12,306 nt of DNA, taken from the NCBI GenBank assembly GCA_030616165.1, contig JAUWXV010000102.1, forward strand, positions 1 through 12,306. The letters are read 5' to 3'. A model generated the notes under the pieces. The model was not told the DNA's origin. It searched no databases and saw only the letters and a list, made by a program, of their open reading frames with translations. The position numbers and the translations under genes were made by a program. The DNA comes from a bacterium (GTDB lineage Bacteria > SM23-31 > JAUVVT01). This document shows, piece by piece, positions 6,868 through 10,564 of this stretch; position 1 is the stretch's first letter, and the number at the start of each line of letters is the position of its first letter.

Positions 6868-6871
6868 TCAT

Positions 6872-6877
6872 TCCTTT
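6872..6877 (-). promoter_or_regulatory. Ribosome binding site fixing the TTG start of kdsD
   Basis: AAAGGA on the minus strand lies 4 bases before TTG (6865-6867), the only start in frame with the SIS domain. The ATG that immediately follows the site is out of frame and meets a stop after MIEIEH, so the TTG is the real start. Confidence 0.7.
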
Positions 6878-6907
6878 TATTAAAATATTAATCACAAAAA
6901 AATTACT

Positions 6908-6930
6908 CCGCGACAATTTCCCTGTCGTGG
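6908..6930. repeat. Small hairpin upstream of kdsD
   Basis: Bases 6908-6915 (ccgcgaca) pair with 6923-6930 (tgtcgtgg), with one G-T wobble and a 7-base loop. It lies 6 bases from the REP palindrome that follows and seems to be part of the same repeat cluster. Confidence 0.6.
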
Positions 6931-6935
6931 GGTCT

Positions 6936-6963
6936 GTAGGGGCGGTTCGTGAACCGCCCTTAC
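6936..6963. repeat. GTAG-headed REP palindrome
   Basis: gtaggggcggttcg/tgaaccgcccttac forms a 13-bp stem with one G-T wobble. It starts with the tetranucleotide GTAG at 6936-6939, the feature recognised in REP sequences that serve as RAYT substrates. It is one of several sharing the GTAGGGG head in this window. Confidence 0.85.
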
Positions 6964-7018
6964 AAATACAATCATTATTATTCATTAACATTTTCATAAT
7001 TGCCATGCGGATTTCGTT

Positions 7019-7040
7019 GGGGCGAACGGCCGTTCGCCCC
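7019..7040. repeat. REP palindrome just downstream of the RAYT gene
   Basis: A perfect 22-base palindrome (ggggcgaacgg/ccgttcgcccc), 9 bases beyond the RAYT stop. Its core is identical to the palindrome inside the RAYT coding region (7323-7342). The head reads GTTG instead of GTAG, so this copy may be degenerate. It probably marks one end of the RAYT/REP island. Confidence 0.88.
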
Positions 7041-7049
7041 TTCATGAAT

Positions 7050-7616
7050 TTATTGTAATATTGTTTTATTAATTATGGATTTACCTCCCCAATTTTTTGG
7101 ATTTTCCTTATCCAACTCCCATCCTAATGGATTATTAAAAATATATTCACGAATTTGATTTAACTCTTTTTCATCGCCAATAATATGTTCATAATAATTC
7201 CCCTGCCAAAAAGGAGCGCCGGATGTTTTTCGCATTTTGTTAATTTTATATGTTGTCGATGATTTGAATCCAGCCATTAATGATGATAACAATTTGGATT
7301 TCATTCGTTTGTGGTTTTGTAGGGGCGAACGGCCGTTCGCCCTCACATCTGCAGAAATGTCCACAATAATAACAATGGCGTGAAAATGATTGGACATTAC
7401 CTGATAAAAATCCAATTCAATTTCAGATGAACGTAACCATTCCGCTTCAATGATTTGGCCATATTTGTTCAATTTCATTTCCCCATTCATTATCTCACCC
7501 AAAATACATTCCCTATTATGCGTACAAATGGGCACAAAATAGACACCATATTGTGAATAATCATAATTTTTTAACCGAATCGACCGTCGGTTATGTTTTT
7601 CCGGATTATATTTCAT
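7050..7616 (-). CDS. REP-associated tyrosine transposase (RAYT, Y1_Tnp/IS200-like HUH family)
   Basis: 188 residues, a normal length for RAYTs. The N-terminal pattern RRSIRLKNYDYSQYGVYFVP with ICTHNRECILGE is typical. The HUH metal-binding motif is NHFHAIV (His77, His79). The catalytic tyrosine lies in WQGNYYEHII (Tyr141/142), and the C-terminal REYIFNNPLGWELD closes the family signature. RAYTs are single-copy housekeeping-like relatives of IS200/IS605 transposases that act on REP palindromes with single-strand chemistry. Oddly, residues 92-98 (RANGRSP) are encoded by a perfect REP palindrome inside the gene at 7323-7342, in frame and without breaking the protein. A serine replaces the proline of the commoner MPNHFH form. 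No ribosome site is evident. The gene lies with its REPs between kdsA and kdsD, splitting that pair. It appears intact. Confidence 0.93.
   Translation of the reverse strand: MKYNPEKHNRRSIRLKNYDYSQYGVYFVPICTHNRECILGEIMNGEMKLNKYGQIIEAEWLRSSEIELDFYQVMSNHFHAIVIIVDISADVRANGRSPLQNHKRMKSKLLSSLMAGFKSSTTYKINKMRKTSGAPFWQGNYYEHIIGDEKELNQIREYIFNNPLGWELDKENPKNWGGKSIINKTILQ
7319..7343. repeat. REP palindrome embedded in the RAYT coding sequence
   Basis: A GTAG head at 7319-7322 is followed by the perfect 20-base palindrome 7323-7342 (gggcgaacgg/ccgttcgccc). On the minus strand it is read in frame as Arg-Ala-Asn-Gly-Arg-Ser-Pro between the HUH motif and the conserved C-terminal part. The core is identical to that at 7019-7040. 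Confidence 0.9.
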
Positions 7617-7642
7617 AACGTTCTGATTTATACATTAAACAT

Positions 7643-7738
7643 CTATACATTACATCCATCACAGGTTTTTGTGGTAGGGGCACAGCGCGCTGTGCCCCCA
7701 CAGGTATCAATCAAAATTACAATTCCGTGAAAATGATT
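7643..7738 (-). pseudogene. Decayed RAYT fragment carrying the HUH motif
   Basis: Read on the minus strand from 7738, the 31 codons begin NHFHGIVILIDTCGG, then TARCAPTTK and TCDGCNV, ending at TAG (7643-7645). The first part matches residues 76-90 of the intact RAYT next door (NHFHAIVIIVDISAD), sharing the 13-base string aatcattttcacg. It has no start codon, no N-terminal domain and no catalytic tyrosine, so it is a remnant. Its REP palindrome (7677-7698) falls within about one codon of where the intact gene carries its own, but the palindrome sequence is different. The upstream edge abuts a half REP head (GTAGGGGCG on the minus strand, 7739-7747). Confidence 0.7.
7674..7698. repeat. GTAG-headed REP palindrome inside the RAYT remnant
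   Basis: A GTAG head at 7674-7677 runs into the perfect 22-base palindrome 7677-7698 (ggggcacagcg/cgctgtgcccc). The head matches the other REPs, but the arm sequence is distinct. It is in the same orientation as the REP in the intact RAYT. Confidence 0.88.
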
Positions 7739-7758
7739 CGCCCCTACTTATTTATAAT

Positions 7759-10511: not shown

Positions 10512-10564
10512 GGGTGAACCAGTTCACCCCTACGCAGTTCGCGTAGGGGCGGGTTTACCCGCCC
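10512..10564. repeat. BIME-like pair of inverted GTAGGGG REPs
   Basis: Three consecutive stems are seen: 10512-10519 with 10522-10529 (gggtgaac/gttcaccc); 10527-10535 with 10541-10549 (cccctacgc/gcgtagggg); and 10547-10554 with 10557-10564 (gggcgggt/acccgccc). Two REP units lie in opposite orientation with their GTAG heads facing each other, the arrangement known as a bacterial interspersed mosaic element. Confidence 0.85.

Follow-up and report, generated by a model that had tools for sequence, protein, structure and literature searches.

A RAYT gene fragment carrying a REP, and the association of in-gene REP type with the adjacent alphaC helix

The closest described systems are the TnpA_REP enzymes of subclass 2.4 (Quentin et al. 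2018, PMC6006769), which resemble the locus studied here in having an HuH/Y1 enzyme, flanking REPs and double-foot REPs. According to the main text of that paper, REPs are inserted in frame between HuH and Y in the tnpAREP genes of this subclass, and a variable insertion domain lies between beta3 and alphaC; as far as this main text goes, no link is drawn between in-gene REP, flanking REP and alphaC sequence, and no mosaic genes are described, unlike here. The E. coli TnpA_REP enzyme has been solved bound to a REP hairpin (4er8; PMC8266576): its helix alpha3 contacts the REP stem, with K82 at the stem/bulge, and the region of W94/Q95 reads the GTAG. This structure is the best fold match of the AlphaFold2 model of the intact RAYT in our window, designated RAYT-A (VIA Z 12.7, Foldseek E 2.9e-6), but the E. 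coli enzyme has no in-gene REP, its REP is bulged, and the two proteins share 21% identity over 126 aligned residues. Work on RAYT–REP coevolution and 'orthoswitches' (Nunvar 2010, PMC2817692; Nunvar 2013, PMC3686654) showed that orthologous RAYTs can have different REPs; those cases concern flanking REPs in Stenotrophomonas and Pseudomonas, with neither an in-gene REP nor a helix module. Intragenic GTAG/CGTC REPs and the RPEs of Rickettsia (PMC3733652) are likewise in-frame palindromes inside genes, but their host genes are unrelated and the repeat has nothing to do with the target of the encoded protein. RAYTs are bacterial enzymes of single-stranded DNA, and REPs are the hairpins that they target; the present finding bears on how an enzyme chooses its REP family and comes to switch to another.

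The window (the whole stretch of DNA analysed, 12,306 nt) carries RAYT-A and a short RAYT fragment on its minus strand. In minus-strand order, kdsA is followed by GTAGGGGCG-AATCATTTTCACGG...GATACCT-GTGGGGGCACAGCGCGCTGTGCCCCTAC-CACAAAAACCTGT-GATGGATGTAATG... and then by intact RAYT-A. The features are:

7739..7747, minus strand: REP head GTAGGGGCG, abutting the RAYT fragment, with the left junction within GTAGGGG-CGAATCAT (at the hyphen)
7702..7738, minus strand: RAYT-derived part, codons NHFHGIVILIDT (HUH motif and following strand), from its identity to RAYT-B
7674..7701, unstranded: REP palindrome of the fragment, GTGGGGGCACAGCGCGCTGTGCCCCTAC in minus-strand reading, an inverted repeat with a double foot
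7661..7673, minus strand: REP tail CACAAAAACCTGT, of which CACAAAAAC recurs after related REPs
7617..7660, minus strand: leader of RAYT-A (GATGGATGTAATGTATAGATG...AACGTT), its first 24 nt identical before RAYT-B
7050..7616, minus strand: RAYT-A, intact, 188 aa, Y1_Tnp by Pfam and fold match, TnpA_REP subclass 2.4-like
7380..7391, minus strand: HUH motif NHFH of RAYT-A, with N76, H77 and H79 invariant in alignments A1 and A2
7319..7346, unstranded: in-gene REP of RAYT-A, GTGAGGGCGAACGGCCGTTCGCCCCTAC in minus-strand reading, translated VRANGRSPL, part of loop 89-107
7230..7292, minus strand: alphaC (alpha3) helix of RAYT-A, residues 109-129 by AlphaFold2 secondary structure, the proposed REP reader
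7019..7040, unstranded: REP 3′ of RAYT-A (GGGGCGAACGGCCGTTCGCCCC), with the core of the in-gene REP and decayed feet
6936..6963, unstranded: additional REP of a different class (GTAGGGGCGGTTCGTGAACCGCCCTTAC)

Positions 7747..7674 of the minus strand read GTAGGGGCG-AATCATTTTCACGGAATTGTAATTTTGATTGATACCT-GTGGGGGCACAGCGCGCTGTGCCCCTAC, and the fragment forms one open frame, translated NHFHGIVILIDTCGGTARCAPTTKTCDGCNV and ending in a stop. That it contains RAYT sequence, as a preliminary description had proposed, is borne out by RAYT-B, a gene on contig C108 of the same genome that was found by DNA search and is 58% identical to RAYT-A in amino acids. From CGAATCAT up to the REP, 41 of 41 nt (7740-7700) are identical to RAYT-B (G000:C108:2768-2808), and past this stretch both continue into the same REP and tail; the BLASTN match to C108 covers 76 nt at 96% (E 1.6e-29), and a third copy lies on C38 of the same genome (86%, E 1.3e-18). 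The similarity therefore extends beyond the NHFH string (its confinement to that string was to have counted against the claim), and a chance NHFH match is ruled out by the 41/41 nt identity. The REP core of the fragment has five genomic copies: three in and around RAYT-B, which has the same REP inside the gene and on both flanks, one in a RAYT remnant on C38, and that in the fragment itself. The tail element CACAAAAAC also lies 3′ of the REP inside RAYT-B, of both RAYT-B-flanking REPs and of the C38 REP. Identity, REP and tail together show that the fragment is a broken piece of a RAYT-B-type gene carrying its resident REP, with no separate REP insertion; taken alone, it is not the second independent REP copy that had been read into it.

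Several details of the fragment change with this reading. The 31 codons described earlier do form an open frame, but only about 12 are RAYT-derived before the REP; nine are REP, and the remainder is REP tail and unrelated sequence. The HUH codons at which it was said to restart are present, but the nine bases before them are a REP head, joined at CGAATCAT. The palindrome has, as described, other arms than that of the intact gene (7674-7701 versus 7319-7346) and a GTAG head at its far end, but its HUH-side end reads GTGG, as befits a double-foot REP. Its position had been placed within about one codon of that in the intact gene; in fact the distance from the HUH N codon to the start of the REP is 37 nt in the fragment and 45 nt in RAYT-A, a difference of 8 nt, nearly 3 codons.

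At the position of the left junction the C108 gene has ATGCCGAATCAT, and its identity with the fragment begins at CGAATCAT; REPs beginning GTAGGGGCGAAT are present elsewhere in the genome, and a few bases are common with the gene at this joint. The fragment ends about 13 nt past its REP, where it meets the conserved leader (GATGGATGTAATG...) that precedes the downstream RAYT; the right joint is the start of the leader common to RAYT-A and RAYT-B. The piece runs from the HUH codons through the in-gene REP and tail of a RAYT-B-type gene, fused to a REP head on one side and to the RAYT-A leader on the other. Interior half-RAYTs with a REP at the break occur on two other contigs of the same genome, C302, where a REP is immediately followed by a C-terminal half, and C278, where alphaC is replaced by two REPs, and in G108. 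The fragment fits this pattern, and REP-associated breakage is therefore its most likely origin. Only interior half-RAYTs were counted here, as many half-genes end at contig ends, where assemblies break at repeats; half-RAYTs as a whole were rejected as proof of breakage at REPs for the same reason. At L316, L317, L319, L323, L326 and L329, RAYT matches run out at a contig end just where the in-gene REP site lies, so these repeats seem to break short-read assemblies inside RAYT genes.

It is an even call, in our judgement, whether a complete second RAYT once stood here and recombination at REPs removed all of it but the fragment. In favour, the broken RAYTs of C302, C278 and G108 have a REP at their breaks, and the REP that forms the fragment's right side is common to other sites, but no larger remnant is present at the locus, and no intermediate is seen: in relatives of the same class the gene after kdsA is kdsC, itself followed by kdsD, or else kdsD at once, and the stretch between kdsA and kdsD has neither REP nor RAYT. 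This arrangement leads us to reject an ancient RAYT at the locus and marks the RAYT and the fragment as specific to the lineage of the window. At 6868-7758 of the window kdsC is absent and the RAYT, the fragment and the REPs stand in its place, whereas the class relatives L338, L339 and L341 have kdsC between kdsA and kdsD; in L337, another class relative, kdsC is also absent, leaving a 24-nt gap and no RAYT. A further GTAG REP of the window (GTAGGGGCGGGTTTACCCGCCC, at 10543) lies between kdsB and pyrG, and its class is also found inside the RAYTs L002 and L003.

RAYT-A matches Pfam PF01797 with 33.9 bits (cut-off 23), and its HUH residues N76, H77 and H79 and the conserved tyrosine Y158 are invariant in alignment A1. 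Its in-gene REP lies in frame between HuH and Y and runs GTGA...CTAC, with imperfect double feet. The residues that it encodes fall in loop 89-107, which AlphaFold2 models with a pLDDT below 50, directly before the helix 109-129. The gene is flanked by GT[AG]G REPs, of which the 3′ one has the same core and the 5′ one is of another class; RAYT-A shares its REP class with L115 and L123, which also have the nearest alphaC helix. The E. coli GTAG contacts W94, Q95, E100, H101 and R104 correspond to W137, Q138, E143 and H144 in RAYT-A, but to G147 at the last position. Position 147, the equivalent of the GTAG contact R104, and position 139 are both glycine in RAYT-A and arginine in nearly all relatives, and MSNH stands in place of MPNH. 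Given the missing R147 and R139, RAYT-A may be inactive or losing activity.

The preliminary description had also suggested that this spot in the RAYT gene is a recurring REP site, which our survey confirms and which is already known for TnpA_REP subclass 2.4, where the insertions between HuH and Y are reported in the main text of Quentin et al. (PMC6006769) to keep the frame. We collected 169 distinct RAYT genes from whole genomes, mostly metagenome-assembled, and 80 named contigs of about 20 phyla, and split each gene at the HUH and W motifs. Palindromes scoring at least 10 were found in the HUH-to-W loop of 84 genes, against 2 in the N-terminal and 4 in the C-terminal part; they lie at a median of 41 nt after the HUH codon, and their arms are highly varied. 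In another 49 genes, taken from other genomes, the counts were 30 in the loop, 1 upstream and none downstream. The in-gene REPs are read in two frames (40 and 35 cases), and the third, which contains a TAG stop, is used in 1 of 76. Identical REPs can be read in different frames beside similar helices, as in L118 (VGAYGHTPLQ) and L143 (GRGVWPYAPT) or in L129 and L116; because of this, it appears to be the DNA palindrome that is conserved, and not the peptide, and selection on the encoded peptide is disfavoured. Such two-frame REPs can have arisen by separate insertions or by compensated frame changes. Cultured bacteria with subclass 2.4 RAYTs include Aquaspirillum serpens (L132, class GCACGGCGCGCCGTGC) and Nitrosomonas halophila (L134), and viral contigs yielded only two RAYT relatives, both without an in-gene REP. 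Among other arrangements, L002 and L003 (C283 and C302 of the window's own genome) belong to another RAYT subfamily with a REP directly before the W motif (REGRVNPPLR), L003 having a second one upstream of HUH (VGADLSARIH), and L056, L113, L121 and L219 hold 2 to 4 tandem in-frame REP-derived copies in the loop (e.g. AGLEPVTNRAGLEPVTNRAGLEPAPT).

The type of the in-gene REP tracks the adjacent alphaC helix, not the N- or C-terminal scaffold. Among 97 genes with an in-gene REP (4,656 pairs, some same-class pairs possibly sharing recent ancestry), the identity of the alphaC segment, taken without its REP-coded residues, predicted a shared REP with an AUC of 0.92, compared with 0.68 for the N-terminal and 0.58 for the C-terminal segment. 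The partial Mantel value of alphaC given the other two segments was 0.47 (permutation maximum 0.11), with both N and C staying within the permutation range. In a sliding window, the AUC stayed at 0.52-0.6 over most of the protein, rising to 0.75 at the end of alphaB and to 0.93 in alphaC. The informative alphaC columns (4, 7, 8, 11, 12, 15 and 16) form one helical face, and the variable columns 20, 23, 24, 26 and 30 hold no REP information. A gene's nearest neighbour had the same REP in 60 of 80 cases by alphaC, 20 of 80 by N and 4 of 80 by C; for held-out genes it was right in 16 of 25 by alphaC, 4 by N and 2 by C (chance 1.0). Sorted into eight classes, with classes and cut-offs of our own choice, REP type needs 10 changes on the alphaC tree, against a mean of 46.8 after shuffling, and 44 on the scaffold tree, against 46.6; the scaffold segments are conserved and their tree is short, so that the missing signal there may partly reflect poor resolution. 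The REP classes span phyla. The alphaC helix is homologous to the REP-contacting helix of the E. coli enzyme, whose K82 aligns to informative column 15, and the helix that follows the in-gene REP most likely reads the REP stem.

The in-gene REPs were also compared with the REPs around each gene. In 39% of 69 genes, the middle 20 nt of the palindrome inside the gene recurred at 90% or more within the 700 nt on either side, against 2.7% for crossed genes; where the flanks held a REP-like palindrome, the in-gene REP matched it in 21 of 28 genes (cross-gene 7%). By these matches, a gene usually carries inside it the same, cognate REP that flanks it. With flanking REPs alone (39 genes), the same-REP AUC was 0.67 for alphaC, 0.64 for N and 0.59 for C, and among pairs including a gene without an in-gene REP, of which only 19 had the same REP, it was 0.65 for alphaC versus 0.76 for N; another flank-REP test was slightly favourable (alphaC 6 and N 4, versus 0.35 expected). 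The flank-only test is weak and therefore leaves recognition of the REP by the helix unseparated from physical linkage.

Sibling genes provide a further view of the same stretch. Among all pairs, RAYT-A and RAYT-B stand at the 93rd percentile of N identity and the 99.5th of C identity, but at the 57th for alphaC, and their REPs differ; their nucleotide identities over N1, N2, mid and C are 0.73, 0.65, 0.60 and 0.83, and by leader and ends the two genes are siblings. The tandem RAYTs of G337 (0.90, 0.66, 0.67 and 0.97) likewise differ in REP and alphaC, and the dip recurs in L040/L168, L244/L245 and L352/L388, whereas the pairs with the same or closely similar REPs, L144/L151 and L351/L379, have no dip. 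The dip extends from the end of alphaB to alphaC, where the REP signal also lies. Such mosaics could have arisen equally well by a swap of the middle or by conversion of the ends. At L371 (G337:C2:2299500-2303000), three tandem RAYTs each start in overlap with the end of the previous one (common GAACATTATTCAAAATAA); the first two are mosaic, with differing REP and alphaC, and the third is broken by a stop. The agreement of in-gene with flanking REPs, the tracking of alphaC and the sibling mosaics therefore lend partial support to the earlier idea that a RAYT acquires or swaps REPs at this site: not as a REP moving alone, but in the modified form of a linked REP-plus-helix module that is exchanged or co-evolves.

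Two other accounts of this association have to be weighed. REPs might insert everywhere and survive only where they fall in frame into a disordered loop, in which case the in-gene copy would have no role and would match the flanks only as a result of RAYTs acting in cis. The low predicted confidence of the loop (pLDDT below 50), the near absence of the TAG-stop phase (1 of 76), the intragenic REPs of many other genes (PMC3733652) and the view in the main text of Quentin et al. (PMC6006769) that the insertion is peripheral all agree with such tolerance. We nevertheless hold it to be unlikely, as disordered tails rarely hold REPs and as, unless the match in cis is by itself enough, it gives no reason for REP class to go with alphaC rather than with the scaffold. 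Alternatively, a REP beside alphaC could simply hitch-hike with it by descent, with no recognition implied, and the position of alphaC as the segment nearest the REP and the weak flank-only result are in keeping with this. Such linkage is the more doubtful of the two, since the equally near segment on the HUH side predicts REP type poorly (window AUC 0.55-0.59), the informative alphaC columns follow a helical face with no decay with distance, the same REP can be read in either of two frames next to similar helices, and the REPs within genes agree with those on the flanks. For the fragment, a mobile REPIN-like unit of 74 bp carrying a RAYT piece, bounded by inverted GTAGGGGC, is suggested by the inverted REP heads at the ends of 7674-7747 but is very improbable: these ends are different REPs rather than two inverted copies of one dispersed REP, the exact unit is single-copy in the genome (its left junction has no second copy at up to 3 mismatches), the copy on C108 is part of a gene and lacks the left REP head, and what lies on C38 is a longer remnant of a RAYT. 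A 73-bp REPIN-like element with inverted ends GTAGGGGCGAAGCATT...AATGCTTCGCCCCTAC does occur at L024 (1501-1573, on C32 of the same genome), with a relative on C20 (L016).

We consider it probable that the best overall explanation combines a fragment from a RAYT-B-type gene with a REP/alphaC module. In subclass 2.4, the loop that joins the HUH strand to alphaC, disordered and of variable length, holds an in-frame copy of the REP that the enzyme most likely recognises, and this copy and the adjacent alphaC reader would make up one specificity module, so that near-identical gene ends may bear different modules. Contacts of alphaC would set REP specificity, the enzyme itself may place or renew the in-gene REP, and modules could move between RAYT genes by recombination or gene conversion. 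More tentatively, and with the balance tilting a little against it, REP and alphaC would form an exchangeable cassette, in which a swap from the end of alphaB to the end of alphaC re-aims the scaffold to a new REP family. The segment would then comprise both reader helix and target template, and a new target and its new reader would arrive together. For the tracking of alphaC by REP type, the agreement of in-gene and flanking REPs, and the mosaics, we found no earlier report in the open-access literature.

If a short helix beside a REP copy in the same gene does set the REP type, one could tell the target of many uncharacterised RAYTs from the gene sequence. The code by which REPs are read would then be derivable by comparison, and module-swap experiments would be straightforward. 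A further consequence would be an explanation of how an old enzyme scaffold gives rise to new REP families.
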